A stretch of 64,000 bases of DNA from positions 1 to 64,000 of the forward strand of contig KZ478060.1 in assembly GCA_002837195.1 (NCBI GenBank). The letters run 5' to 3'. The position numbers and the translations under genes were made by a program. The stretch's first letter is position 1. Each line of letters starts with the position of its first letter. The DNA is from Enterobacterales bacterium CwR94 (GTDB lineage Bacteria; Pseudomonadota; Gammaproteobacteria; Enterobacterales; Enterobacteriaceae). This document shows positions 2,994 through 49,577 of this stretch, one piece after another. The notes under the pieces were generated by a model. That model did no database searches, had not been told where the DNA came from, and worked only from the letters and a program-made list of their open reading frames with translations.

Positions 2994-3329
2994 GATGTTG
3001 GTTTCACGAAAAGTTTTAGAAAGATAAGAATTATTTTGCGCTGTGTAATTAAGACACCTTCCGCCACGCGTCAGTTGAATGCAAGCGGGAACCTTCCCGG
3101 AAACGCAGTAAGTTGCGCCCTATCACATTTCCTTACGTATTCTTTCAACTCAAAGACAGGTTTCAACATTTTCTGGCAGAAAAACGCACTTAGGCATGAC
3201 AAATGATGACATCTGTAAATCAATTTAGAGGTTGATGGGCCGTTGCCTGCAACATTACCTATAGAAGGATCTGTTTTTATCCCAAAACTGCGCAAAATGT
3301 CATCACAGCGTCTTAACTTGTTACTGGGA

Positions 3330-3351
3330 AAGTGTCGGTTTGATCACATCC
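3330..3351. promoter_or_regulatory. Candidate CRP site in the malT-malP control region
   Basis: TGTCG-N6-TCACA: one perfect TCACA half and a degraded left half; about 15 of 22 positions agree with the CRP consensus by eye. malT is CRP-dependent in E. coli, which makes the site plausible. The rest of 2994-3470 is AT-rich noncoding DNA with no convincing gene. Confidence 0.5.
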
Positions 3352-3367
3352 TCAGCTACGCCCTGAC

Positions 3368-3401
3368 TCTCCTCCCCATCCGGGCGTAAACAGGGAGGAT
3401 G
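3368..3401. promoter_or_regulatory. Candidate MalT boxes upstream of malP
   Basis: MalT binds decamers close to GGGGA(T/G)GAGG. The minus strand of 3368-3377 reads GGGGAGGAGA (9 of 10) and the plus strand of 3392-3401 reads AGGGAGGATG (8 of 10). They lie 70-103 bp upstream of the malP start codon, where activator sites would be expected. Orientation and spacing were not compared with a mapped promoter. Confidence 0.42.
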
Positions 3402-3470
3402 CTGGCAAACGCGCGAGCCTGCAGCATGTGCGCATTATTTTCGCGAAACCTCACAAATGGGATACACGGT

Positions 3471-5870
3471 ATGTCGCAGCAGAAATTTCATCCGGCACGT
3501 TTCGAAGCGGCGTTGACGCGCCAATGGCAGGGATTTGGAGTGACAGAGGCAAAGGCGATGTCGCCTCATCAATGGTGGCAGGCGATCAGTGGCGCTGTCG
3601 CGGAACAGTTGTCTGCCCAGCCAGCGATTAAAACGAAGTCACAGCGACACGTGAACTACCTTTCTATGGAGTTTCTGATTGGACGCCTGACAGGCAACAA
3701 CTTACTGAATCTCGGTTGGTATGATGAGGTGGCAAGCATCCTGTCCACCTATGGCGTTGAACTCAGCACGCTGTTAGAAGAAGAGATTGATCCGGCATTA
3801 GGTAATGGTGGCCTGGGGCGTCTGGCAGCCTGTTTTCTGGATTCTATGGCAACCGTGGGGCAATCCGCGATTGGTTACGGCCTCAACTATCAATACGGGT
3901 TGTTCCGCCAGTCTTTCCGCGAAGGCGCGCAGCAGGAAGCGCCAGACGACTGGCAGCGTCAGCATTATCCCTGGTTTCGTTATAACAGCGCGCTCGACGT
4001 TGATGTGCCGCTGGGCGGCAAACTGGTAAAAAACGCACAAGGTATCCCTGAATGGCATCCCGCCGTGACCCTCCGGGGCCAGGCCTGGGATTTGCCCGTA
4101 ATTGGATACCGAAACGGGATGAGCCAGCCACTGCGCTTATGGCAGGCGACGCACGTTCACCCGTTCGATTTTGAACTGTTCAACGAAGGCAAATTTTTGC
4201 AGGCGGAGCAGCAGGGAATTGATGCTGACAAACTGACGAAGGTGCTGTACCCGAATGACAACCACGAACCGGGCAAGCGCCTGCGTTTGATGCAACAGTA
4301 TTTCCAGTGTGCCTGCGCCGTCGCGGACATTCTGCGTCGTCATCAGCAAGCCGGGCACAGTATTCACAGCCTGCCTGATTTCGAAGTTATTCAGCTTAAT
4401 GACACCCACCCAACGATTGCCATTCCAGAAATGCTGCGTGCGTTACTGGATGATCACCAGCTCAGTTGGGATGAAGCCTGGCACATCACCAGTCGTACGT
4501 TTGCCTATACCAATCACACCTTAATGCCTGAAGCCCTGGAGCGTTGGGATGAGCGGTTGGTCAAAAGTTTACTGCCGCGTCATTTCACGCTGATTCAGGA
4601 AATTAATAAACGCTTTAAACGCCTGGTGGAAAAACAATGGCCTGGCGATGCTGCCGTGTGGGCAAAACTGGCGGTGATTCATGATAAGCAGGTACGCATG
4701 GCAAACCTGTGTGTGGTCAGCTGCTTTGCGGTAAATGGCGTTGCTGCGCTGCACTCGGCGCTGGTGGTGAAGGATCTGTTTCCTGAATACAGCCAACTTT
4801 GGCCCAAGAAATTCCATAATGTCACCAACGGTATCACGCCGCGCCGATGGCTAAAGCAGTGTAACCCTGCATTGTCCGCCTTGATCGATGAGACGCTGAA
4901 TGTCGAGTGGGCAAATCACCTGGATGCGTTAAAGGGGCTGGAACCGTACGCAGATGATGCTGCGTTCCGTCAGCGCTATCGCCAGATCAAGCATGATAAC
5001 AAGCTCCGCCTGGCGCATTACGTGAAACAGGTGACCGGAATTGAAATCAATCCTCAGGCGATCTTTGATGTGCAAATCAAACGCCTGCATGAATATAAGC
5101 GTCAGCATCTGGCGTTATTGCACATTTTATCCTGTTACCAGCGTTTGCGTGATAATCCAAAAGCCCCGATGGTACCGCGCGTTTTCCTGTTTGGTGCTAA
5201 GGCGGCGCCGGGTTACTACCTGGCGAAAAACATCATCTATGCGATCAATAAAGTCGCTGAAGTGATCAATAACGATCCGCTGGTCGCCGATCGCCTGAAA
5301 GTGGTGTTTATTCCTGATTATCGCATCACGGTGGCCGAGCAAATGATCCCCGCGGCCGATCTCTCTGAACAGATCTCTACGGCAGGTTACGAGGCCAGTG
5401 GCACCGGTAATATGAAACTGGCACTCAATGGTGCACTGACCATTGGGACGCTGGACGGCGCGAATGTGGAAATTGCTGAGCAGGTTGGCGAAGAGAATAT
5501 CTTTATCTTTGGCAACACGGTTGATGAAGTGAAAGCGTTGAAAGCCGGTGGCTATGATCCGCTGAAAATCCGCAAAAAGGATAAACATCTCGACCAAATT
5601 CTGAAATCGCTGGAGAAAGGCGAATTCAGTAACGGCGATAAGCAGGCCTTTGAACCACTGCTGCACAGCCTGACGAAAGGCGGTGATTTCTGGATGGTAT
5701 TGGCAGATTTTGCCGAGTATCTGCAAGCTCAGGCCCGTGTTGAGGCGTTATGGGAAGATCCCGAAGCCTGGACGCGCGCCACCATTTTAAATACTGCACG
5801 TACCGGCATGTTCAGTTCGGATCGTTCGATCCGCGACTATCAGCAGCGCATCTGGCAGGCCAAACGCTAA
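3471..5870 (+). CDS. malP: Maltodextrin phosphorylase
   Basis: Cytoplasmic glycogen-phosphorylase-family enzyme that removes glucose units from linear maltodextrins as glucose-1-phosphate, using pyridoxal phosphate. The 799-aa protein (E. coli 797) aligns throughout: [20 protein letters not shown] near residue 65, and the PLP-lysine signature [14 protein letters not shown] near residue 640. An upstream in-frame ATG at 3399 would add 24 residues with no counterpart in the family; the ATG at 3471 (MSQQKF) is chosen because it matches the known N-terminus and follows a GGGA-type ribosome-binding site. malQ starts 10 bp after the stop, so the two form the classical malPQ operon, likely MalT-activated. 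Confidence 0.97.
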
Positions 5871-37812: not shown

Positions 37813-38778
37813 ATGACCGGCGTACTGGATACTCTGCTCCACCAAATCTATCTTTCGACCCCGTTATTTATTGTGCTTTTTCTGGGCTGGAGTCTGATCC
37901 GGTTTTTTGGGTGGCCAACCGACGTCAGCACGGGGTTGAATCGCTTTGTGTTTAAAATCGCCTTGCCTTGCATGCTGTTCAAGGTGATGAGTGATTTTTA
38001 TAAAAGTCCGCCGGTGGATTTCCGTCTGCTGTTTGCCTTCTTTGGCAGTTGCCTGATTGTCTTTATTGTTGGACGCATCATTGCCGCCCGCTTTTTTCAG
38101 CTGGACGGCGTCTCAGGCTCTATCTTCGCGCTGGGCGGTATTTTTTCTAATAACGTGATGTTAGGGATCCCCGTGGCGACCCTGCTGTTGGGCGAACGCG
38201 CATTGCCTGCCGTGGCGTTGGTACTGGTGTTCAACAGCCTGATTTTATGGACGCTGGTGACCGCATCGGTGGAGTGGAGTAAGTCAGGCTCTCTCTCCTT
38301 ACAAGGTATCGTCAACACGTTGCTGAACGTGTTCAAAAATCCTCTGATTATCGGCATCTTATCTGGCTTTGCCTGGAGCCTGCTGGAGACGCCGTTGCCC
38401 TTTGTCATTGACCAACCAGTCAGTATGTTGGCGCAAATAGCCGCGCCTTTATCACTGGTCACGCTGGGCATGAGTTTGGCGCAGTACAAAATCCGCGAAG
38501 GATTGCGCGAAAGTTATACCATTTGTTTCTTAAAGCTGGTGGCTCAGCCGCTGGTCATCTGGGGGCTGGCAGTGCTACTGGGATTGCCGCCGCTGGAGAG
38601 TCATGTGGTGGTGTTGTTGGGATCGATGTCGGTGGGGGTCAATGTTTACCTGATGTCGCAACAGTTTCAGGCGTTGACCGGACCGGCCGCCAGCAGCATG
38701 CTGTTTTCCACGCTGCTGGCGGCAATCACTACGCCATTATTGATGATGTTAATGGATCTCTCGATGCCGATTCCCTAA
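37813..38778 (+). CDS. AEC-family carrier (auxin efflux carrier-like)
   Basis: A 321-aa inner-membrane protein with about ten hydrophobic helices in two inverted halves, as in the bile/arsenite/riboflavin transporter superfamily. Landmarks: NRFVFKIALPCMLFKV near residue 43, GGIFSNNVMLGIPVATLLLG near 112 (the family's N-x-x-x-L/M-G-I-P signature) and the matching NPLIIGILSGF and SLVTLGMSLAQY in the second half. Bacterial members such as MdcF or YfdV export or import small organic acids; substrate cannot be assigned here. The start overlaps no gene, and the mak gene converges on it with only 1 bp between stop codons. Confidence 0.85.
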   Translation: MTGVLDTLLHQIYLSTPLFIVLFLGWSLIRFFGWPTDVSTGLNRFVFKIALPCMLFKVMSDFYKSPPVDFRLLFAFFGSCLIVFIVGRIIAARFFQLDGVSGSIFALGGIFSNNVMLGIPVATLLLGERALPAVALVLVFNSLILWTLVTASVEWSKSGSLSLQGIVNTLLNVFKNPLIIGILSGFAWSLLETPLPFVIDQPVSMLAQIAAPLSLVTLGMSLAQYKIREGLRESYTICFLKLVAQPLVIWGLAVLLGLPPLESHVVVLLGSMSVGVNVYLMSQQFQALTGPAASSMLFSTLLAAITTPLLMMLMDLSMPIP

Positions 38779-38779
38779 G

Positions 38780-39691
38780 TTACAGCGTTAAGCGTGGCAG
38801 CCAGGCCGCGCCGCGAACCCCGCTGGAATCTCCGTGTATCGCTTTGCGGATCGGGGTATGGCACTCGCCGCCAAACACCCATTTCGGCAGCAGTTCGGGC
38901 AGCGATTGGTATAAGCGATCAACGTTGCTCATGCCACCGCCCAGTACAATCACGCCGGGATCCAATGTGTTGATCATGCCTGCCAGCGCTTTTGCCAGAC
39001 GGGCTTCGTACAAGGCGAGTGTTTTTTCTGCGCGGGCATCACCCTGCTCAGCCAGCGCCATGATATCGCGCCCTTTCAGGGCTTCTCCGCCCAGCCGCCG
39101 CCAGGTGGTTTCAAAGCCAGAGCCAGAAATAAACAGCTCATTACAGCCCGCTTTGCCGCAATAGCAGGGCACATCGCGGGCAAACTGCTGTTCTTCGTCA
39201 TCTTGCCAGGGCAAGGGATTATGGCCCCATTCACCCGAAACGCCGTTGCCACCGACCCAAACACCGCTGTTGAGGGCCACTCCGCCGCCGCAGCCGGTGC
39301 CAATAATCACCGCAAACACCACTTTCACACCGGCACCCGCACCATCGGCCGCCTCGGATATCGCGAGGCAGTTAGCATCGTTGGCAATCGACACCGAGCG
39401 GCCCAGGCGTTGTTCTAAATCCTGCTGCAAGGGCTGCCCATTCAGCCAGGTTGAATTGGCATTTTTCACACGTTGCGTGAACTGGGAAATCGTCCCTGGA
39501 ATACCGACGCCCACAGTGCCGGTTTGGCCGACGCGCTGCTCTGCCAGCAGCACGAGGTCGGTAATGGTTTGCAATGTGCCTGCGTAATCGTTCTTTGGCG
39601 TGGGGACGCGATGGCGGAAGTGCTCCACACCCTGGTCATCAAGGGCGATCACCTCGGTTTTGGTGCCGCCTAAATCAATGCCAATCATCAT
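38780..39691 (-). CDS. mak: ROK-family fructokinase Mak-like
   Basis: ATP-dependent sugar kinase of 303 aa, closely like E. coli Mak (YajF), which phosphorylates fructose and, weakly, mannose at C6. Seen: the nucleotide-binding start [16 protein letters not shown], the sugar-contact [11 protein letters not shown] near residue 78, catalytic Asp in [13 protein letters not shown] near 104, EWGHNPLPW near 155, the zinc cluster CYCGKAGC near 172 and [10 protein letters not shown] near 246. Its ATG overlaps the stop of the upstream permease gene in ATGA, so it is the last cistron of the sugar ABC operon here, unlike E. coli. The natural substrate may therefore be the transported sugar or its isomerised form. 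Confidence 0.88.
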
Positions 39692-40710
39692 GATGACTTC
39701 TCCCGGTTATTCAGACGTATTTTAAGTTGCGAGAATAACCCGCGGAACACCACGATAGCGATAATAATGGCCCCCCAGGTGGCGGTAATCATAAAGGGAT
39801 CCATGCGCATCAGGTTCAGGCCGCTGGAAATAATCTGCAAGATAATGACTGCCAACACCACGCCGGAGACCCGGCCAAAGCCGCCAAAGGGGCTGACTTT
39901 ACCGAGAAAGGCGGCTAACACTGCGACCAACAGATAGGAGTCGGCATAACTGGCTTTCACCGAGTTAAGCTGGCCCATCATCACCAGTGAGGTGAGGGCG
40001 GCAAACGCTGAGGAAAAGACATATTGCATGACGGTGATTTTCACCAGACTCACATTGGCATAGCGAGCGGCTTCAGGATTCGACCCCATCATGTACAGGC
40101 TAAAACCAAATCGCGTTTTGTTGAGGATTACCGAGGCGACAATGGCGGCAACGATAAACAAAATCAACGCGTTGGGTACGCCGAAGCTGGCACCATTGCC
40201 AATATTTAACAAGGCATCCGGGAAACCTGACAGCGTATAGCCTTTGGTGAACACCACATTCAGCCCGGCAATCAGCGTCATGGTGCCAAGTGTGACCAGA
40301 ATATCGGGAATTTTTAGCAGTGAAATCAGCAAGCCATTCACCACACCGACCAGCACGCAGGCAAGAAAACCCAGTAGCACAGCCATTATCACCAGTTCGC
40401 TACTCGCCGTTTTCATACCGCCAGCGGCAAATTGCTGTAGGCAGAGGGCGATGATAATGCCGTTCAGATTCGCGGTGGCGATAATCGACAGGTTAATGCC
40501 GCCGGATAACATCGAAATCATCATGCCAATCGCCAGTAAGCCAACAATCGGCAACTGATAGGCCATGGAGATCAGGTTTTGACTGCGGATAAACCGTTCG
40601 CCGTTCATGAAAAACATCAGCGCAAAGACCGCAATCAGCACGACATACAGCGACAGGTTCTCTGTCACCATCGCGGAAAAGCGTAACCGCGCGGGCGTAT
40701 GGGTTTTCAT
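39688..40710 (-). CDS. Sugar ABC transporter permease, second copy
   Basis: A 340-aa integral membrane subunit of the BPD_transp_2 (RbsC-like) family with eight to ten hydrophobic helices and the family region NILVTLGTM-like ([20 protein letters not shown], about residues 140-160). Two in-frame ATGs exist: the first (40725) overlaps the stop of the upstream permease, but AGGAGC lies just inside it and 7 bases before the second, so I place the start at 40710 (MKTHTPARL). Two different permease genes rather than one suggest a heterodimeric channel, as in LsrCD. The gene ends in an ATGA overlap with mak. Confidence 0.88.
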
Positions 40711-40721
40711 TGTTTTGCTCC

Positions 40722-41729
40722 TCATTGTTCCACCACTACGCGAACTTGCGCCCGTTTCTGCCGCAGGATTTGCACGGCATTGGCGACCACGCTGAACAGA
40801 ATGACTAATCCCGTGAAGACGTTGTAGTAGTACGGTGACACCTTCAGCAGCGTCAGGCTGTTGCTCAAGATGGCGAACAGCAACACGCCAAGCAGAGTAC
40901 CTAATACGGTGCCGCGTCCCCCGGTCACAGAGGCGCCGCCCAATACCACCGCCGCGATCACTTGTAGCTCCGATCCCACAATTGAGTTAGGGATCACGGT
41001 TTGCACGATCGACACCTGAATGATGCTGGCAAAACCCGAGATGGCACCGACAAAAGTGTAGATAAACAGCGTGGTACGGCGCAGGTTAAACCCTACCCGT
41101 TCTGCCGACAGTGGATTGCCGCCCACCGCATAGATACTGCGACCCAGCACGGTGTGTTTCAGGAAGTAGTGCAGGAAAATAGCCAGCGCAAACCACAGGC
41201 AGGTAATCAGGCTCAAACCGTACCAGGCGCCGTTTGCAGCCTGCAGGGGGAAGATTTTGATCTCGGCCAGACTCAGCAGGGAAGGCGGGATGTCGTACAG
41301 CAAATCCCCTTTGGTTATCACATACAGCGCGCCATAAAACAGGCTATTGGTGGCGATGGTGACGATAATGGCGGTGATTTTGAAATAGTAGATAATGACG
41401 CCATTCACCAGCCCCATTAGGGCACCGAGGATCAGGCTGCACAGGATTGCCAGCCAAATGCTGTCGAGGCCAGCCTGCAGGAACCAGAACACCACGGCAT
41501 ATTGCACCACCTGGGCAATGGCGGTGAAGGAGACATCAAAGCCACCAGACAGCAACACCAGCAGCACGCCCAGCGCAAAAATGCCCAGCACCGTCCAGGA
41601 TTTCAGCAGACTGGTTAAGTTATCAAACGTCATGAAGGCAGGGTTGATACTGGTAATCGCAATCGACAATGCGATGATCAGCACCAGCAGCAGGGTTTCC
41701 CTCGCCTTCAGTATCTTCATCAGATCCAT
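40722..41729 (-). CDS. Sugar ABC transporter permease, first copy
   Basis: A 335-aa RbsC-like permease with an N-terminal helix (ETLLLVLIIALSIAIT), the VLLSGGFDVSFTA motif near residue 60, typical of this family (LSGGIDLSV), and VLGGASVTGGRGTVLGT near 270. GGAGG sits 8 bases ahead of the ATG. It shares fold but limited identity with the next permease, so they are paralogues forming a heterodimer with the ATPase upstream. Confidence 0.9.
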   Translation of the reverse strand: MDLMKILKARETLLLVLIIALSIAITSINPAFMTFDNLTSLLKSWTVLGIFALGVLLVLLSGGFDVSFTAIAQVVQYAVVFWFLQAGLDSIWLAILCSLILGALMGLVNGVIIYYFKITAIIVTIATNSLFYGALYVITKGDLLYDIPPSLLSLAEIKIFPLQAANGAWYGLSLITCLWFALAIFLHYFLKHTVLGRSIYAVGGNPLSAERVGFNLRRTTLFIYTFVGAISGFASIIQVSIVQTVIPNSIVGSELQVIAAVVLGGASVTGGRGTVLGTLLGVLLFAILSNSLTLLKVSPYYYNVFTGLVILFSVVANAVQILRQKRAQVRVVVEQ

Positions 41730-41750
41730 AAGATTATCCTCCGGCAGCGG

Positions 41751-43232
41751 TTACTGACGCTCCATTTCATGTTGTAAGGCGTCATTATCAATCTCTTCAG
41801 TGAGCCAGCTTTTGCCGAGACGTCCACGGCGCATCATGATGATGCGATCGCAGTTAGCGAGCAGCTCTGGCAATTCATCACTGATAAAGATGATCCCCAT
41901 CCCTTCTTTGGCTTTTTCTTTCACGGTTTTGTAGATGTAACTTTTCGCCCCGACATCGATGCCCACCGTGGGGCTGTCGAGGATAAACACCTGCGGCTTC
42001 ATCGCTAACCATTTCGCCAACACCACTTTCTGTTGATTCCCGCCGGACAACATGCGAATCGGCAGATCCTGACTGCCGTATTTCACCTGCATGCCTTTCA
42101 GGAGTCCTTCCACGGTGTCGCGCATTTTGCTGCCATTTAGCAGCTTAAACGGGGTCAGATAGTGATCGAGGGTGCAAATCGCGGCGTTGGCGGCAATGCT
42201 TTGCTCCATGACCAGCCCTTGTGCGAGCCGGTCTTCGGGAACATAGGCGATGCGGTTTTTCACGGCGGCACTGATGCTATCGATGTTGACCGGTTTCCCG
42301 TTGAGCCAGATTTCGCCGCTTTGTGCGGGCTCCACGCCAAACAGGGCCATCGCCAGTTCGGTACGCCCGGCGCCCAGCAAACCGGCGATACCCAGCACTT
42401 CGCCTTTGTGCAGGTCGAAGCTGACATCCTGGAAGCTGTTGCGTTTGCACAGGTTTTTCACGCTGAGCAGCACATCTTGTGTGGCGTGAGACTCACGCTC
42501 ATCAAACGTCAGTGCGTAGCCGAGCATCAAGGATTCGATATCACTGCTGGTGAGCTGCGACGTCGGCTGGCAGTCAATCACCTTGCCATCGCGCATCACC
42601 GTGACGCGATCGCAAATTTCCAGCAGTTCGTTGAGTTTGTGGCTGATAAAGATAAAGGCGATGCCTTCCGCTTTTAGCCGATTAAGAATGTTGAACAGAT
42701 TGGTGATTTCACTGCGGGTCAGCGCGGTGGTTGGCTCATCAAGAATGATTAGCTTAGATTCGTTAATTAACGCGCGAGCAATTGCCACTAACTGTTGTTT
42801 GGCAATCGGCAATGCGTCGACGGTGGCTTCCAGATCGAGCGATATCCCCAATTGTTGAATAATATGCTCCACCTTTTGCTGATAGGCACTGGCGCGCACC
42901 AGCGGCTTTTTATCGTTCAGCATCTGGCTGATATAGATGTTTTCCATCACCGTGAGATTGGGAAACAGTGACAAGTCCTGATAGATAATACCGATGCCGT
43001 TTTTCACGGCTTCCATCGCGTTATAGCGGTTTTGCGGCTGGTTTTTGATACGCAGTTCACCGCGATCGCGAGGTAAAACGCCCGCGATGATTTTCATCAA
43101 CGTGGATTTTCCGCAACCGTTTTCACCCACCAGACCGTGTACTTCTCCCTGGTTGATATCAAAACTGACGTTATTGAGGGCGGTGACACCGCCGAATTTT
43201 TTGGTGACATTTTCAACGGCAAGGAACTGCAT
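41751..43232 (-). CDS. Sugar ABC transporter ATP-binding protein
   Basis: A 493-aa protein of two tandem ATPase domains (RbsA/MglA/AraG type). Domain 1: Walker A GENGCGKST near residue 40, signature LPIAKQQLVAIARAL near 140, Walker B LIILDEPTTALT near 160. Domain 2: degenerate Walker A GLLGAGRTEL near 288, signature LSGGNQQKVVLAKWL near 395, Walker B VFILDSPTVGIDVG near 418. In domain 2 the usual catalytic Glu after Walker B Asp is Ser (DSPT), so one ATP site is likely inactive. The frame runs 19 codons further upstream, but the ATG at 43232 follows AAAGGTGAACC and begins MQFLAVENV as expected. Confidence 0.93.
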   Translation of the reverse strand: MQFLAVENVTKKFGGVTALNNVSFDINQGEVHGLVGENGCGKSTLMKIIAGVLPRDRGELRIKNQPQNRYNAMEAVKNGIGIIYQDLSLFPNLTVMENIYISQMLNDKKPLVRASAYQQKVEHIIQQLGISLDLEATVDALPIAKQQLVAIARALINESKLIILDEPTTALTRSEITNLFNILNRLKAEGIAFIFISHKLNELLEICDRVTVMRDGKVIDCQPTSQLTSSDIESLMLGYALTFDERESHATQDVLLSVKNLCKRNSFQDVSFDLHKGEVLGIAGLLGAGRTELAMALFGVEPAQSGEIWLNGKPVNIDSISAAVKNRIAYVPEDRLAQGLVMEQSIAANAAICTLDHYLTPFKLLNGSKMRDTVEGLLKGMQVKYGSQDLPIRMLSGGNQQKVVLAKWLAMKPQVFILDSPTVGIDVGAKSYIYKTVKEKAKEGMGIIFISDELPELLANCDRIIMMRRGRLGKSWLTEEIDNDALQHEMERQ

Positions 43233-43273
43233 AGGTTCACCTTTGTCATTGTTTTTGCGGATAAAGAATGGGA

Positions 43274-43408
43274 GCTGTTTGTCCCCCACCTAGTTTGTGT
43301 CATAGGTAGGCGCTGTTTGTCCCCCTCCCAGTTTGAGTCACAGGTAAGAGCTGTCTGCCCCCCTCCCAGTTTGGGTTACAGGTAGGCGCTGTCTGTCCCC
43401 CTCCCAAC
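43274..43408. repeat. Tandem direct repeat, 38-bp period, within the sugar operon
   Basis: Four units begin at 43274, 43312, 43350 and 43388, exactly 38 bp apart; each starts GCTGT(T/C)TG(T/C)CCCCC and ends CA(T/C)AGGTA or ACAGGTA, with the fourth cut short at CCCTCCCAACC. They fill the gap between the binding-protein gene and the ATPase gene. Confidence 0.85.
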
Positions 43409-43520
43409 CCTCCCCCGTAAACGGGGGAGGGCTTGTTTTTTATCCCCTTGCAAGCAAGGGGGAGGGCTTCTTTTTTATTCCCCCTCCCGCGAGCGGGTGG
43501 GGGTTAGGGGGAGGGACAGA
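43405..43520. repeat. Cluster of C-rich palindromes
   Basis: Three inverted repeats follow the tandem units: CCCTCCCCCGT-AAA-CGGGGGAGGG, CCCCTTG-CAAG-CAAGGGG(GAGG) and CCCCCTCCC-GCGAGCGGGTGGGGGTTA-GGGGGAGGG. They could form strong RNA stems on both strands. Similar sequences occur at 47172 and 53684. They resemble REP elements between cistrons, which in malE-malF raise the level of the upstream binding-protein mRNA. Confidence 0.75.
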
Positions 43521-43543
43521 CAACTCAGAACCACACAACAAAC

Positions 43544-44530
43544 TTAAAAATCGTACTTGCTGAAGTTTTCTTTGGTCACGGTTAACGGCTTATCAAAAAT
43601 GATGTTCTCACCGTTGATTTCAGGCACGCCCAGCGTCGGAATTTCCAGACCCTGTTTGATTTGATCGCGCTTACCATCCAGTACCATTTTGGCGATATAG
43701 GCCATGGCATAAGAGGCTTCACCCGGACTCCACAGGATAGATTCGGTAATTGAGCCGTCTTTCAGAAACGCGGCGCTCTCTTTCGGTGACGTAGTACCAA
43801 TCACCGTGAGTTTGCCCACCAGTCCTTTCTCGCGCAGTGCCTGGGCTGCCCCTGGCGCACCCTGGCTACCAAAGGCCAACACACCTTTCATATCTGGGTA
43901 GGTAGAGAGTAATTCCAGCGTTTTCTGACGCGCTAAATTACGGTCTTCGCTGACCGGGAAACGTTCCGCAATCAGTTTCATCTCCGGGTATTTGGCTTTC
44001 ATCTGCTTAAGTGCAGCATCCGCCCATACGTTATGTGCGGGCACGGTCAGCGAGCCAACAAAAATAGCGAACTCGCCTTTGCCGCCTGCGTGTTTGGCAA
44101 ACTCATCCATCATGTAGTTGCCAAATTTTTCATTCTCGATCATTTCCACGTTGTAATCCGCACCCGGTTGGTTCACGGATTCATGGGTAATCACCACAAT
44201 GTTCTGCTTACGCGCCTGATTAAATACCGGCTCTACGGAGCTGGCGTTGTTCGGTACCACCAGCAACGCATTGTTTCCCTGACTGATACTGTCCTGGATA
44301 ATACGCACTTGCTGTGCTTCATCCGCAGAGGCGGGTGCCTGGTAATACACTTTAAGGTCAAAATCTTTCCCGGCTTTATTCAGACCCGTTTCGTAGTCAT
44401 TAAACCAGGCAGAGCGCAGTTTTGGGATGCCGACCATCGAGTATTGTTCGGCGGCCAGGGTATAACTTGCCGTGCACAGGGTGCTGACGCCCAGCAGGAT
44501 TGCCAGCGCCAAATTTTTACGCGTTTTCAT
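43544..44530 (-). CDS. Periplasmic sugar-binding protein of the ABC transporter
   Basis: A 328-aa protein with a Sec signal (MKTRKNLALAILLGVSTLCT then ASYTLAA, cleavage near residue 27) and two Rossmann-like lobes of the Peripl_BP_4 family. The start VGIPKLRSAWF and end TKENFSKYDF resemble LsrB/RhaS-type proteins. However, the LsrB residues that hold autoinducer-2 are not kept: the VTDQNQW segment of LsrB corresponds to VPAHNVW here, losing the Asp-Gln pair. An AI-2 label would therefore be misleading; the ligand is unknown. It starts 27 bp after the VOC gene and is followed by the repeat cluster. Confidence 0.9.
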   Translation of the reverse strand: MKTRKNLALAILLGVSTLCTASYTLAAEQYSMVGIPKLRSAWFNDYETGLNKAGKDFDLKVYYQAPASADEAQQVRIIQDSISQGNNALLVVPNNASSVEPVFNQARKQNIVVITHESVNQPGADYNVEMIENEKFGNYMMDEFAKHAGGKGEFAIFVGSLTVPAHNVWADAALKQMKAKYPEMKLIAERFPVSEDRNLARQKTLELLSTYPDMKGVLAFGSQGAPGAAQALREKGLVGKLTVIGTTSPKESAAFLKDGSITESILWSPGEASYAMAYIAKMVLDGKRDQIKQGLEIPTLGVPEINGENIIFDKPLTVTKENFSKYDF

Positions 44531-44557
44531 TGTAAGCGTTCCTTATTGCAGTAGGGA

Positions 44558-45031
44558 TCAGGCGGGGTAGCGCCGTTCTGGTTCGGGAATTGAGCCGGCA
44601 TTACCGATCTCAATGACAGCACCCTGAAAACGTTCTTCGGTATCCAGGTAATAAAACACGTCATTACCAATGTTGCCGCTTTGCACCACTTCGTAACCGC
44701 GCGCGATATAGGTTTGCAGCGCTTTTTCGCAGTCTTCAAAGTAGAGCTTCATGTGGTGCAGGCCATAGCCGTGCTTTTCGATGTATTCGTTATAAATGCT
44801 GTAGCCGGAAACGGGCTGCATCAGCTCCATTTGAATGCCGTTAATCCAGCACACGGCAATTTTATAAACGTGCTGAGCCGGTTTTCCGCGATACAGCGAG
44901 TTATTGACGCTATCTGGGCCATAGGTGTAGATATCCCACGGGCCAATATCAAAGGCTTCCCAGTAGTGCTTCATCGCAGCATCGAGATCTTCCACCAAAT
45001 GCGCGATTTGAATGATTTCACCGTCTTTCAT
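44558..45031 (-). CDS. VOC-superfamily (glyoxalase-fold) protein
   Basis: A 157-aa protein with two beta-alpha-beta-beta-beta modules: IIQIAHLVEDLDAAMKHYWEAF at the start and YGLHHMKLYFEDCEKALQTYI in the second half. The four metal ligands expected in VOC enzymes can be placed at H11, E69 (in QMELMQP), H92 or H93 (GLHHMK) and E141 (AVIEIGN), the pattern of methylmalonyl-CoA epimerase and glyoxalase I. It is therefore likely an active metal-dependent isomerase, epimerase or lyase acting on the imported sugar or a derivative. GGAG lies 9 bases before the ATG. The specific reaction is not known. Confidence 0.85.
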   Translation of the reverse strand: MKDGEIIQIAHLVEDLDAAMKHYWEAFDIGPWDIYTYGPDSVNNSLYRGKPAQHVYKIAVCWINGIQMELMQPVSGYSIYNEYIEKHGYGLHHMKLYFEDCEKALQTYIARGYEVVQSGNIGNDVFYYLDTEERFQGAVIEIGNAGSIPEPERRYPA

Positions 45032-45046
45032 ATTAAGCGCTCCGCA

Positions 45047-45619
45047 TCAGGCAAATTTATGGGGTAAGCCTTCCAGATTGGTATGGCTGGCTTTCATCGC
45101 ATCCATATCAATTTTCTTTTTCTCAATCAGCATCAGCGTGACGATATCGGTAAACAGGAACAGCGCTTGTTCCAGTAAGGTCGACATTGGCTGCATGGAC
45201 GGCACTTCATGCTCGCCACCAAAGATTTGGCCCGGCACGCGCACGGCGAGATCGGCATATTCGCCATGGGCATTTTCAGGGTGTGCGGTCAGCAGCACGA
45301 TGCGTGCGCCTGCTTCTTTCGCCAGTTTGATGATATTGAGTTCAACGTTGGTCACCGCGCAGTGAACAATCAACAGGTCACCTTTACCGAGGTAGGGGGT
45401 GGTGGTGTCGTACACCAAGTAGCTGTCAAAGCCCATATGCTTCAGGCGCATGGCAAAACCGCGCACCGAAAGTTGCATACGGCCCATGGCATACAGTTGG
45501 ATGGTTTTTGCGTTACAAATCTCCTCCATCAACTGTTCAATTTGCGCAGGATCAACCCTTTCTAACGTCTCGCGGTTTTCAGCCAGCACTTTATCGACGA
45601 GTTCCTGGTACTGTGACAT
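45047..45619 (-). CDS. SIS-domain protein, phosphohexuloisomerase-like with altered loops
   Basis: A 190-aa single-domain SIS-fold protein whose length and ending resemble 6-phospho-3-hexuloisomerase (STLLEQALFLFTDIVTLMLI, residues 146-165, with Glu150 in the catalytic position). The phosphate-binding loops differ from the family: the usual GAGRSG reads AMGRMQLS (residues 44-51) and the usual SGSGET reads HCAVTNVE (86-93). Loss of these serines suggests that the substrate is not a standard sugar phosphate, or that the protein is a sensor. It is the first cistron of the operon, with GAGG ahead of ATG. Confident on fold, not on reaction. Confidence 0.82.
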   Translation of the reverse strand: MSQYQELVDKVLAENRETLERVDPAQIEQLMEEICNAKTIQLYAMGRMQLSVRGFAMRLKHMGFDSYLVYDTTTPYLGKGDLLIVHCAVTNVELNIIKLAKEAGARIVLLTAHPENAHGEYADLAVRVPGQIFGGEHEVPSMQPMSTLLEQALFLFTDIVTLMLIEKKKIDMDAMKASHTNLEGLPHKFA

Positions 45620-45670
45620 ATGAGCATCCTCGGTCTGGTCCTGCGATATTGCAGGTTAGGGTTATTATTT

Positions 45671-45684
45671 TTACAAATTTGTAA
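45671..45684. promoter_or_regulatory. Perfect palindrome in the divergent sugar-operon region
   Basis: TTACAAATTTGTAA, a perfect 14-bp palindrome 52 bp upstream of the SIS gene start. Its TTACA/TGTAA halves recur at 45874-45904, suggesting operators for the divergently encoded GntR/LacI-type regulator. Confidence 0.6.
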
Positions 45685-45784
45685 TTTAATTTGCTTGATA
45701 ACTGAACATAACCTTACGCAATATTTTGACAATTTCTTTTGGTTTTGATCACATTTTCATCACGAGTTCTGCTTTCAGGATGTG

Positions 45785-45806
45785 AAAAGCGATCTAAATC
45801 ACAAGT
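45785..45806. promoter_or_regulatory. CRP site in the divergent sugar-operon region
   Basis: The 22-mer has the symmetric core GCGATCTAAATCACA and agrees with the CRP consensus (AAATGTGATCTAGATCACATTT) at about 17 of 22 positions by eye. It lies near the middle of the 406-bp gap, about 165 bp upstream of the SIS gene, fitting catabolite control of a sugar operon. Confidence 0.7.
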
Positions 45807-45873
45807 TTTCACCCTTTTAATGGGCTATCTTGCATTCAGCAAAGGGAAGAAGAAAAAATGGCTGCGATTATTC

Positions 45874-45904
45874 TGTAAATTATAAATTTTACAACTTGGT
45901 GTAA
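45874..45904. promoter_or_regulatory. Paired inverted repeats near the regulator gene
   Basis: Two overlapping perfect inverted repeats: TGTAAA-N8-TTTACA (45874-45893) and TTACA-N6-TGTAA (45889-45904). They share half-sites with the palindrome at 45671, about 200 bp away, so a looping or bipartite operator is possible. The rest of 45620-46025 is AT-rich and noncoding. Confidence 0.55.
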
Positions 45905-46025
45905 TATTCACTCGCTTGATTTTACTTATTATCTCCCTTAATGTGTTCCAGCGTTGCCTGGCAGGCCAGGTAGCGCCATCGTGCGCCGGATGAGGACGGG
46001 CGCGTAGAAGGCGGAATAACCAACT

Positions 46026-47150
46026 ATGGCGAAATCAGGCAAGCTGGAACGGGTCTACCAGGATCTGGAAAAACGTATTCGTGGCGGCGCCTATTCATTG
46101 GGTGAGCGGCTGCCAACAGAAGTGACTTTGTGTCAGGAATTTGATGTTTCACGACCGACATTATCGCGCGCCTTATTACGCTTGCGTGAAGAGGGGTTGA
46201 TCAGCAGTACGCAGGGTTCCGGCCACTACATCACCTTTGATGCCGGAGATATCACCCCAACGCGCTATAGCGAACCGATGGCGCTGGGCATTTTATCGCC
46301 GCGCATGGAGGCCAATGAAAGCGGCTTTTTGTTTGAGCAAATCTTCAAATCTATCGCCGCATTGTCACAAACTTTTAATTTCGATTTGGTGTGGAATGGC
46401 GTCATGACGCTGGGTGCGGGGGCTACTCGGCAGGCTATTCTGGCTAAAATTGATCATGTTATTGAGCGCTATCTGCGCAGTGATGTTCGCGGCGTGTTTT
46501 TTATTCCGGTGGAATTTCATCCCTATGCAACTGAGATCAACGAACTGATTCTCAGCAAATTAGATCGCTATGGCATTGGCGTGGTGCTGCTGGATGGCGA
46601 CGTTGCCCGCTGGCCACAACGCAGCCGCTGGGATTTGATTGGGATTGATAATGTTGCTGCGGGATTAGAAGTGACGCAGCATCTGATGGGCCATCAGCCG
46701 CGGCGTATTGATTTTCTCTGCGAGCAGTTTTCGGCGAATACCGTCAATATGCGCATGATGGGCTACCGTTTGGCTTTATTGGAAGCTGGTATCGCGCCGT
46801 TGCCTGCGTGGGTGCATGAAGGTGAACTCAACGATCGCGACTTTGTGATGCAACTGTTGGAAGGCGGTGCGCAGGATATTGTTTGTGCCAACGACTTTAC
46901 CGCGATGAAACTGCTTTCTGTCTGCACGCAGCAAGGGGTGAAAGTCAACGTCGTGGGCTTTGACGATAACGAATATTCTGCGTTATTGGGTATTCCGCTT
47001 ACCACTTATAAGCAGCCGTTCAGCGATATTGCGCGCAATGCCGTCTTAACATTGCTGAATCGCCTGACCTGGCCGCAGGACAGCGCCCGCCATCTGGTGT
47101 CTTATGGCGAGCTGATTGTGCGCGCCTCCTGTACCGCACGTGACCGTTAA
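46026..47150 (+). CDS. GntR/LacI hybrid regulator of the sugar operon
   Basis: A 374-aa regulator joining an N-terminal GntR-type winged helix (residues about 5-72: VYQDLEKRIRGGAYSLGERL, PTEVTLCQEFDVSRPTLSRAL) to a LacI-type periplasmic-binding-like sensor (about 84-370: DLIGIDNVAAGLEVTQHL near 205, VNVVGFDDNEYSALLGIPLTT near 310). This is the architecture of AraR. It faces away from the SIS-VOC-ABC-mak operon across 406 bp that hold palindromic operator candidates and a CRP site, so it very likely controls that operon, with the imported sugar or a product as inducer. GGCGGAA precedes the ATG. Confidence 0.88.
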   Translation: MAKSGKLERVYQDLEKRIRGGAYSLGERLPTEVTLCQEFDVSRPTLSRALLRLREEGLISSTQGSGHYITFDAGDITPTRYSEPMALGILSPRMEANESGFLFEQIFKSIAALSQTFNFDLVWNGVMTLGAGATRQAILAKIDHVIERYLRSDVRGVFFIPVEFHPYATEINELILSKLDRYGIGVVLLDGDVARWPQRSRWDLIGIDNVAAGLEVTQHLMGHQPRRIDFLCEQFSANTVNMRMMGYRLALLEAGIAPLPAWVHEGELNDRDFVMQLLEGGAQDIVCANDFTAMKLLSVCTQQGVKVNVVGFDDNEYSALLGIPLTTYKQPFSDIARNAVLTLLNRLTWPQDSARHLVSYGELIVRASCTARDR

Positions 47151-47171
47151 TCCGCAGACCTGCCTTAAAAA

Positions 47172-47189
47172 CCTCCCCCGCAGGGGAGG
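47172..47189. repeat. Palindrome between convergent regulator and gcd
   Basis: CCTCCCC-CGCA-GGGGAGG in the 48-bp gap between two stop codons. It can serve as a bidirectional terminator, having AAAA on one side and TTGGC on the other, and belongs to the same C-rich family as the intergenic repeats elsewhere in the window. Confidence 0.6.
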
Positions 47190-47198
47190 CTTGGCTAT

Positions 47199-49577
47199 TT
47201 ACTGACTATCCGGTAAGGCATAGGCGACCAGAGCGTCACCCATTTTTGTTCCGAATGAACCATGACCGCCGGCCATGATCACCACGTACTGTTTCCCGTT
47301 TACTTCATAGGTCATTGGCGTAGCCTGACCGCCTGCTGGCAGCCGTGCTTGCCACAATTGCTCACCGGTGTTGGTGCTGAACGCACGCAGATAGTTATCG
47401 GCGGTTGCGCCAATAAAGAACACGTGGCCCGCAGTGGTCACCGGACCACCGAGCATTGGCATACCCATTTTGAACGGCATCGGCACGGGTGCGCTGTCAC
47501 GGACAGTACCGATACGTTTCTTCCAGACAATGTCATTGGTTTTTAGATCGACGGCAGAGATATACCCCCAGGCCGGTTGCTTACAAGGTAAGCCAAAGGG
47601 CGACAGGAACGGGTTCAACTCAACGCCATAGGGCACACCGTATTGTGGCTGGATACCCGATTCTGTGCCTGTACCTCCTGCGGCACCTTCTGGCGGCTCA
47701 ATCGGATTGCCAGGGCCGCGAGGCACCAGCTTAGAAACGAACGGCAGCGCAATCGGGTTAGCAATTGCGATCTGACGATCGGTATCCACGGCAAGGCCGC
47801 CCCATTCAAACATGCCAAGGTTGCCAGGGAAGACCAGCGTACCCTGCTCGGAAGGCGGAGTGAAAATGCCCTCATAGCGCAGCTTGTGGAACATGACGCG
47901 ACACACCATCTGGTCGAACATTGTCGCGCCCCACATATCTTTGCCGCTCAGATTGTCACGCGGACGGAAGCTCAGCTCAGAGAATGGCTGGGTTGGCGAT
48001 AAGTGATCACCTTTTGCCGGGCCTTGTGGCACATCGCGCTCGGGAGCGGGCACCACCGTTTTACCGGTGCGGCGGTCCAGCACAAAGATATTGCCGGTTT
48101 TCGCGGGGGCATATACCACGGGCACGGTATGGCCGTTTTTATCGGTAATATCCGCCAGGGTGGGTTGCGCAGGTAAGTCCATATCCCACAGATCGTGGTG
48201 CACGCTTTGATAGAACCACGCCAGCTTGCCGGTGGTGGCATTCAGCGCCAGCAAGCCGCTGGCAAAGCGCTCTTGTTCGGGTGTGCGGTTGCCACCCCAA
48301 ATATCAGGCGTTGTCACACCCATTGGCAGGTACACCAGATCCAGTTTGGCGTCATAGGCTGCCGGTGCCCAGGAGTTGGGGGAATTATGCGTATAGCTTT
48401 TACCGTCGACCGGGATGGCGTTGGGATCTTTGGCACCAGGATCGAATGCCCACAGCAGTTTGCCGGTGTTGACATCAAATCCACGGATCACGCCAGAAGG
48501 CTCGCGGGTTGAGTAGTTATCCGTAACGGCACCTGCCACCACAATGGTGGTATCGGTGATGATTGGCGGAGACGTCGGCTCATAGCCGCCCGGCGTTTGT
48601 ACTGGCTGCAGGTGTTGCAGATCCAGCTCACCGTTATTGGCGAAGGTGCTGCAGCGCTCGCCCGTGTTGGCATCCAGCGCAAACAACCGCCCATCGTTGA
48701 CAGGCAGGAAAATACGACGTGAACACATTGCAGCCTGTGAAGAATCTTTCAGATTTTTGGCGGCTGCGGTTTCGTGATATGACACACCACGACAGGTCAC
48801 ATGTTGGAAAGTGGGATCGGTTTTGAGTTGTGGATCGAACGACCACTTCTCTTTGCCCGTCGCGGCATCGAGGGCGTGCAACACCTGATGCGGCGTACAA
48901 AGATACAGCATGTCGCCCACTTTAATTGGCGTCACCTCATTGGTGATTTCACCCGGATCGCTTTCGCGTTTCAGATCGCCCGTGTTAAACGTCCACGCCA
49001 GTTGCAGGTCTTTAACGTTGCTTTCATTGATCTGTTTCAGTGGCGAGTAGCGTGTGCCTTCCCGAGTACGTCCGTAAGCCGGCCAGTCGCTGTCCGTTGC
49101 CGCCGGTGTCACCGTGCTGCTGTCGGCAGACAGTGTTCCGTTAATTTCCTGCGGGTCGTTGAAGGATGCCCAAGTGAGCACGGCCGCACTGGCCAGCAAT
49201 GCAACCCACAGCAGGCGCAGGCCCCCTTTGCGGGGCGCGGTAAACTGGCGATAGACAAAGGGTAAAATTAACCACACGCCAAAGATCACCAGCACGTCAG
49301 TACGGGGTGCCAGCGCCCAGAAATCAAAACCCGCCTCCCAAACAGACCAGGCCAGAGTGGCTAATAAGAGCAGTGCGTAAAGGGTGAGGGCGCTGCTGTT
49401 ACGACGCCACATTAACAGAGCGATAGCCAGCATCACCACGCCGCCAAGCAGGTAGTAGAGACTGCCACCCAGCGTGACGAGCCAGATACCACCCATAAAC
49501 ATGTAGGCACCGGTTAGCGTGGCGAACAATGCCGTCAGCACGCCAATGATGCGCGAAGGAGAGGAGTGTTCTCCCAT
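47199..49577 (-). CDS. gcd: Membrane-bound PQQ glucose dehydrogenase
   Basis: Oxidises glucose (and other aldoses) to the gluconolactone in the periplasm, passing electrons to ubiquinone. The 792-aa product (E. coli 796) has five N-terminal membrane helices (residues about 10-140) and a periplasmic eight-bladed PQQ propeller: DWPAYGRTREGTRYSPLKQI near residue 165, the Trp-docking motif repeats such as TGKLLWAFDPG, and FVLDRRTGKTVVP near 505. The ATG follows GAGGTTGATATT. PQQ itself must be made elsewhere; no pqq genes are in the window. In plant-associated relatives this enzyme drives gluconic-acid release and phosphate solubilisation. Confidence 0.96.
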   Translation of the reverse strand: MGEHSSPSRIIGVLTALFATLTGAYMFMGGIWLVTLGGSLYYLLGGVVMLAIALLMWRRNSSALTLYALLLLATLAWSVWEAGFDFWALAPRTDVLVIFGVWLILPFVYRQFTAPRKGGLRLLWVALLASAAVLTWASFNDPQEINGTLSADSSTVTPAATDSDWPAYGRTREGTRYSPLKQINESNVKDLQLAWTFNTGDLKRESDPGEITNEVTPIKVGDMLYLCTPHQVLHALDAATGKEKWSFDPQLKTDPTFQHVTCRGVSYHETAAAKNLKDSSQAAMCSRRIFLPVNDGRLFALDANTGERCSTFANNGELDLQHLQPVQTPGGYEPTSPPIITDTTIVVAGAVTDNYSTREPSGVIRGFDVNTGKLLWAFDPGAKDPNAIPVDGKSYTHNSPNSWAPAAYDAKLDLVYLPMGVTTPDIWGGNRTPEQERFASGLLALNATTGKLAWFYQSVHHDLWDMDLPAQPTLADITDKNGHTVPVVYAPAKTGNIFVLDRRTGKTVVPAPERDVPQGPAKGDHLSPTQPFSELSFRPRDNLSGKDMWGATMFDQMVCRVMFHKLRYEGIFTPPSEQGTLVFPGNLGMFEWGGLAVDTDRQIAIANPIALPFVSKLVPRGPGNPIEPPEGAAGGTGTESGIQPQYGVPYGVELNPFLSPFGLPCKQPAWGYISAVDLKTNDIVWKKRIGTVRDSAPVPMPFKMGMPMLGGPVTTAGHVFFIGATADNYLRAFSTNTGEQLWQARLPAGGQATPMTYEVNGKQYVVIMAGGHGSFGTKMGDALVAYALPDSQ

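Follow-up and report, generated by a model that had tools for sequence, protein, structure and literature searches.

The allose operon of Escherichia coli (alsRBACEK) encodes an ABC importer, an isomerizing or epimerizing enzyme, and a ROK kinase, and its epimerase acts on a 6-phosphate. Isomerases of the SIS fold generally bind sugar phosphates, with the phosphate giving affinity, as stated in the excerpt of PMC5705639 used here. In NagS, as in MurQ, the phosphate ligands are serines (Ser54, Ser119, and Ser121), and single replacement of the phosphate-binding serines of NagS by alanine left in vivo function intact, according to the part of PMC12680351 on which we draw. The PHI (6-phospho-3-hexuloisomerase), SIS, and VOC families are already known. 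Among the papers listed in a literature search that covered few subscription journals, none described the altered-loop clade presented below, its uptake operon, or a free-sugar SIS isomerase.

The window (the whole stretch of 64,000 nucleotides analyzed here) contains an operon that resembles the allose operon in combining an ABC importer, an isomerizing or epimerizing enzyme, and a ROK kinase; whereas the E. coli operon has a 6-phosphate epimerase, this one has a VOC protein alongside an SIS protein of the PHI type. All of its genes lie on the minus strand. The SIS gene (45047-45619) is followed by genes for a 157-aa VOC/glyoxalase-fold protein (44558-45031), a periplasmic sugar-binding protein (43544-44530; Peripla_BP_4), a sugar ABC transporter ATPase with two ABC_tran stretches (41751-43289), permease 1 (40722-41729; named by position and resemblance), permease 2 (39688-40725; BPD_transp_2), and a fructokinase-type ROK kinase (38780-39691). 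The nearest solved chains to the sugar-binding protein are 9i1m, 3d02, and 5bra. A divergent regulator gene is found at 46026-47150 on the plus strand. Past the regulator lies a gene for a PQQ-domain dehydrogenase (47199-49577, minus strand; Pfam PQQ, 798 bits), probably glucose dehydrogenase, which had no match in the clade loci, and a gene for a membrane transport protein (37813-38778, plus strand; Pfam Mem_trans) is convergent to the operon end. No near DNA match to 41700-47200 was found in E. coli genomes.

The open reading frame at 45047-45619 is a real gene that starts with ATG and encodes a product of 190 aa. Pfam analysis of this product returned the SIS domain (PF01380) at 26.2 bits, against a gathering score of 25. 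Its best family model was TIGR03127 (PHI), at 145.6 bits over residues 9-183, which is below the curated cut-off of 160 bits. Of the 31 clade members, 11 were scanned one by one, this protein included, and all stayed under 160 bits, with a range of 144.4 to 159.0; a standard PHI-like protein encoded at one of the clade loci (L051) scored 170.0 bits. Because the Pfam SIS model gave no match at an E value of 1e-5 for four of the five other members tried (those of L040, L044, L051, and L052), domain annotation easily misses this clade. A match in the PDB was YckF (E value, 1.2e-27; identity, 35%). An AlphaFold2 model made from 28 sequences, one of them standard PHI-like, had a pLDDT of 92.5. Comparison of this model with known structures gave Z scores of 25.2 for YckF (1m3s), 24.5 for AF1796 (1vim), 23.2 for MJ1247 (1jeo), and 23.0 for the PHI domain of 9lj9. 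PHI-type structures ranked above other SIS proteins among the matches listed, and MurQ structures gave Z scores of 15 to 16. The SIS protein is thus predicted by the model to have the PHI fold. The initial annotation proposed a match to PHI in length and C terminus; the protein aligns with PHI along its length and, in addition, carries a C-terminal tail that continues past the point where PHI stops (window sequence, EGLPHKFA).

Two loops set the protein apart from PHI. Loop 1 (residues 44-51; 45467-45490, minus strand) reads AMGRMQLS where PHI mostly has GAGRSG, with Met48 in place of the usual Ser; in the alignment with YckF, GRMQ stands where YckF has GRSG. Loop 2 (residues 86-93; 45341-45364, minus strand) reads HCAVTNVE and aligns as HCAV--TNVE opposite the GSGSGET of standard PHI rows, and so is two residues shorter. 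Both loops are exactly as first annotated, and so is the retention of Glu150 (codon at 45170-45172, minus strand). We take Glu150 to be the catalytic base, a role known from SIS isomerases, and His179 (codon at 45083-45085, minus strand) presumably is catalytic, as in PHI. Both residues are invariant in the 32 clade rows of our alignment and in the 30 other PHI-like rows, and the PHI signature (the Glu of QPMxSLxEQ and a His before NLE) was present in all 32 clade rows.

The serines at three loop positions have been replaced throughout the clade. Residue 48 is Met in 31 clade rows and Cys in 1, compared with Ser in 23 and Val in 7 of the other rows. Residues 87 (30 Cys, 1 Ala, and 1 Gly) and 89 (30 Val, 1 Leu, and 1 Ala) are both Ser in 30/30 other rows; Ser occurs at 48, 87, or 89 in none of the 32 clade rows, every one of which also has the two-residue shortening of loop 2. 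Residue 116 is Asn in 30/32 clade rows versus Ser in 25/30 others. Ser51 is kept in all 32 clade rows, and residue 90 is Thr in 29, Ser in 2, and Asn in 1. By analogy with NagS and MurQ, with which the SIS fold is shared, the altered loops are probable counterparts of the phosphate-holding loops found elsewhere among SIS enzymes. NagS binds phosphate by serines in the part of its description cited above, whereas the window protein has lost the serines of the comparable loops. Since single exchanges of the NagS serines are tolerated, as reported in that same part, the loss of the loops is an argument for a lost phosphate substrate but no proof of one. Another PHI-like group (L006-L010, L012, and L080) has GVGRV, with Val for Ser48, and a loop 2 with serines (GSGSGES).

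Close relatives with altered loops were found at 31 distinct loci in five phyla (the window, L032-L058, L082, L083, and L084). The 27 scanned loci, which come from named genomes and are 59 to 89% identical to the window protein, were chosen by six peptide patterns, one of which was the loop HCAVTNVE, so this set is partly selected for the trait. Searches free of patterns recovered few close relatives: the window and 2 others among 295 genomes of the window's family (72 of which gave weaker matches of some kind), the window and 1 other among 398 genomes of its phylum at an E value of 1e-30, and 4 among 296 genomes of the phylum of spirochaete G306, with G306 included. A fifth match in the spirochaete phylum (L080) has 40 to 41% identity and a standard loop 2. 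All seven loci reached without loop patterns (L033, L050, L055, L058, L082, L083, and L084) have altered loops. Orthologues with standard SGSGET loops, which the initial annotation had suggested looking for, were absent from the clade, in which 31/31 loci are altered. A second SIS copy in planctomycete genome G300 was found through the VOC search; this second copy of the system (L082:6775-8392) has two successive VOC genes in tandem and a loop 1 that reads SMGRCQLS.

In a tree of 62 rows from which the loop columns were omitted, the 32 altered rows formed one branch with support of 100/99.9. These rows represent the 31 loci, L004 and L058 being one locus retained as both rows, and 13 rows were removed as repeats of loci already included. 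The clade was delimited at more than 55% identity to the window protein, and no row falls between 40% (L080) and 59%. The L058 record is named Martelella alba (Aurantimonadaceae), yet its locus is the same as L004 from the window's family, and the name looks doubtful. A candidate second PHI-like partner at L045:3336-3992 aligned as an SIS protein of a different type, with 19% identity, and we removed it from the alignment. The tree indicates that the altered-loop clade has a single origin from a PHI-like ancestor. A single loop replacement that has been kept ever since favors function over decay. Sporadic presence in distant phyla suggests that the SIS-VOC-ABC unit spread by horizontal transfer.

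Standard PHI proteins in some of the same genomes serve as natural controls. The window genome carries a standard 3-hexulose-6-phosphate synthase (HPS) gene directly 5' of a standard PHI gene (C10:22565-23772; L002 and L088), on a different contig from the operon; this HPS scored 273 bits against a cut-off of 200. At L053 (188-7667, plus strand), the altered SIS protein, sugar-binding protein, ATPase, two permeases, a ketohexose 3-epimerase, HPS, and a standard PHI are encoded in one run, and the standard PHI, which follows HPS, carries GAGRSG and GSGSGET. The L051 cluster combines the altered SIS-VOC pair with adjoining genes for a standard PHI-like protein, another VOC protein, and a psicose 3-epimerase. 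The occurrence of the altered SIS protein and standard PHI together at L051 and L053 makes it unlikely that they are interchangeable. The retention of both PHI-like kinds in one cluster suggests that they act on different substrates, of which perhaps only one is phosphorylated. Linkage of HPS to the SIS gene was not a property of the clade: tblastn with the window genome's HPS, with the window represented by the 3.6-kb locus L001, matched 1 of the 31 loci (L053), and HPS matches above 40 bits were absent from 16 of the 27 clade genomes, several of which are incomplete metagenome-assembled genomes (MAGs). At L057, the gene at 3287-4099, which lies upstream of those for the ABC and SIS proteins, encodes a member of the OMPdecase/HUMPS family (Pfam, 105 bits), possibly orotidine decarboxylase, and had no tblastn match to that HPS. 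In summary, the clade has in common with PHI the fold (Z scores of 23.0 to 25.2 for YckF, MJ1247, and 9lj9), the length, and the presumed catalytic Glu and His; it differs by the lost phosphate serines, the shorter loop 2, the C-terminal tail, the scores below the cut-off in all 11 members scanned, the sugar ABC importer alongside, and the lack of a window-type HPS in 30/31 loci.

These data bear on whether the kinase might act first, in which case the SIS protein would isomerize a sugar phosphate by means of a remodeled site (Ser51, Thr90, Asn91, His113, and Asn116). The conservation of Ser51, Thr90 (29/32), and other clade-specific polar residues is what such a site would require, the operon includes a kinase, and SIS is a phosphosugar-binding domain by the title of Bateman 1999; the single dispensability of the NagS phosphate serines, in the cited part of PMC12680351, also would allow it. 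We nevertheless regard this reading as unlikely, given that three Ser positions were lost jointly with a two-residue deletion in 31/31 loci and that the window genome, L051, and L053 also encode a PHI whose loops are intact. The preferred reading is that the substrate of the SIS protein is a free, nonphosphorylated sugar, which we consider rather probable because the phosphate serines are lost, the presumed catalytic Glu and His are kept, and the gene belongs to a sugar-uptake operon among partner families that handle free sugars. The free sugar would probably be a ketose. Of the roles that the initial annotation had offered, a nonphosphorylated substrate is therefore the best reading of the data, and a sensor function gained little from them.

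The order SIS-VOC-sugar-binding protein-ATPase-permease-permease, with SIS first, was found at 21 of the 31 loci, window included (tblastn with an E value of 1e-8 and 40% coverage, or an E value of 1e-5), and spans Enterobacterales, Planctomycetota, Verrucomicrobiota, and Spirochaetota. ABC genes adjoin the SIS gene at L048, L052, and L057, with no VOC gene there, and L053 has the SIS, sugar-binding protein, ATPase, and permease genes with VOC missing. L049 stops at a contig end; like it, L047, L050, L053, and L054 are on contigs that are short or that end nearby.

The VOC protein scored 52.8 bits with PF13669 (cut-off, 27), and its model (pLDDT, 95.6) also has the VOC fold. The nearest structure was 3gm5, a putative methylmalonyl-CoA epimerase, and methylmalonyl-CoA epimerases appeared lower down. 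With the methylmalonyl-CoA epimerase family the protein has in common the fold and, likely, metal-assisted proton transfer; it differs by its score with the family model (38.8 bits, the cut-off being 114.95), by a Gln-Glu-His-Glu set, and by its sugar operon context. This set (Gln8, Glu69, His93, and Glu141) is invariant in the 22 sequences aligned, 3 of them paralogues, and we take it to be the set that binds the metal in human glyoxalase I. By that analogy, the VOC protein likely moves a proton adjacent to a carbonyl with the help of a metal. That the VOC protein is an epimerase of the same pathway is a serious candidate role, with a chance somewhat short of even. Since a VOC search of 14 clade genomes gave no match in 6 (those of L041, L042, L043, L048, L054, and L057), the SIS protein appears to have no strict need of it.

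Upstream of the SIS operon of L044 (750-6592; Verrucomicrobiota) lie genes for enolase-family, Gluconate_2-dh3, GMC oxidoreductase, and short-chain dehydrogenase proteins. In this one lineage, these oxidoreductase and enolase-family genes, together with the VOC partner, suggest oxidized sugars. The SIS enzyme of the clade might catalyze another reaction (lyase, dehydratase, or deglycase), with an unusual derivative of a sugar as substrate, as is the case for NagS and other SIS enzymes. SIS enzymes are chemically diverse, according to the cited parts of PMC5705639 and PMC12680351; with PHI-type Glu150 and His179 retained, and PHI closest by both sequence and fold, we think such a departure from isomerization improbable.

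The divergent regulator has a GntR DNA-binding domain and a LacI-type sugar-sensing domain (Peripla_BP_3), and a divergent GntR-type regulator gene was present at 10/10 enterobacterial loci, a total that includes the window and L058. The intergenic region contains a palindrome, TTACAAATTTGTAA (45671-45684), which we presume to be the operator of this regulator, and a second, imperfect palindrome, TTACAACTTGGTGTAA (45889-45904). TTACAAATTTGTAA is unique in the 64 kb at no more than one mismatch (0.12 expected) and follows the pattern TTACAA-N2-TTGTAA. Of the 10 distinct intergenic regions from enterobacteria, window included, 8 carry the palindrome with at most one mismatch, whereas 300 Markov control sets gave 0.04 on average and never more than 1; at this threshold, it was absent from the intergenic regions of L038 and L058. 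The recurrence of the palindrome suggests that the GntR/LacI-type regulator binds it.

SIS proteins can have noncatalytic roles, DiaA being comparable as a sensor or scaffold. The loss of the phosphate loops would suit such a role here, as would the flanks of L041, L042, L043, L084, and L054, in which tblastn found no further gene of the operon. The two residues presumed to be catalytic never vary, however, and the operon already has a regulator with a sugar-sensing domain and a conserved palindrome, so a sensor or scaffold is very unlikely. Weakest is a role as PHI in the ribulose monophosphate (formaldehyde) pathway, to which TIGR03127 as the closest family model and the HPS gene in the same run at L053 would point: the HPS searches (no tblastn match in 30/31 loci, and none above 40 bits in 16/27 genomes, incomplete MAGs among them), the scores of 11/11 scanned members below the PHI cut-off, and the separate standard HPS-PHI pair of the window genome led us to reject it as exceedingly improbable.

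To judge by the kinase and epimerase partners, what is passed on is a free ketose. The window ROK kinase scored above the cut-off of the fructokinase Mak model NF007108 (490.4 versus 443 bits) and was the sole gene of the window genome to do so. A ROK kinase lies inside the operon at 8 of the 10 enterobacterial loci; at L034 and L035, the operon has none, and a copy is found elsewhere in the genome. A fructokinase-type kinase above the cut-off was present in 9/9 other enterobacterial genomes tested (L058 counted) and in none of three Commensalibacter genomes. With the fructokinase model, operon copies scored 477 to 495 bits and separate copies in five genomes scored 540 to 572 bits; because the separate copies score higher, the kinase of the operon is possibly a paralogue of different specificity. 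D-Psicose 3-epimerase, by its model name an enzyme of free ketohexoses, was found above the cut-off in clusters L045, L051, L056, and L053. It was present in 12 of 27 clade genomes versus 0 of 14 controls, which were not phylogenetically matched, and in just 1 of 9 enterobacterial clade genomes. FGGY kinases were found at L046 (XylB-type, xylulokinase), L048 (ribulokinase-type), and L045 (type uncertain). Given these xylulokinase and ribulokinase types, the substrate possibly depends on lineage or is not a hexose.

Taken together, the parts fit an inducible unit for the uptake and isomerization of a rare free sugar. The ABC importer would take the sugar into the cell. The SIS enzyme would then move the carbonyl by proton transfer via Glu150 and His179, the likeliest shift being one between the C2 and C3 positions of a ketose. 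It would need no 6-phosphate handle, Met48 and the shortened CAV-TN loop replacing the phosphate serine loops. The assignment of a C2/C3 keto shift as such is taken from PHI ancestry and is tentative, with the chances leaning against it. The metal-type VOC protein may epimerize a carbon adjoining the carbonyl. In enterobacteria, the fructokinase-type ROK kinase would act downstream of the SIS step and phosphorylate the ketose produced, and the GntR/LacI-type regulator would govern the unit through the TTACAA-N2-TTGTAA palindrome. As a whole, the proposal of a free-sugar isomerase of single PHI-like origin, placed ahead of the kinase in an uptake operon, is one that we hold at somewhat better than even.

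A more specific and doubtful extension is that the SIS and VOC proteins form a phosphate-free and NAD-free ketohexose epimerase route, in which the keto group would move to C3, the VOC protein would invert C4, and the keto group would move back, for example, converting tagatose to fructose for the fructokinase. We think this improbable as it stands; it would explain the pairing of the unit both with fructokinase and with the 3-epimerase.

If the proposal is true, this phylum-spanning clade would be a natural example of the SIS fold converted to free sugars. The clade marks out a sugar-uptake operon that is undescribed in the literature searched, and its genes should not be annotated as PHI. 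Its enzymes could serve in the production of rare ketoses.
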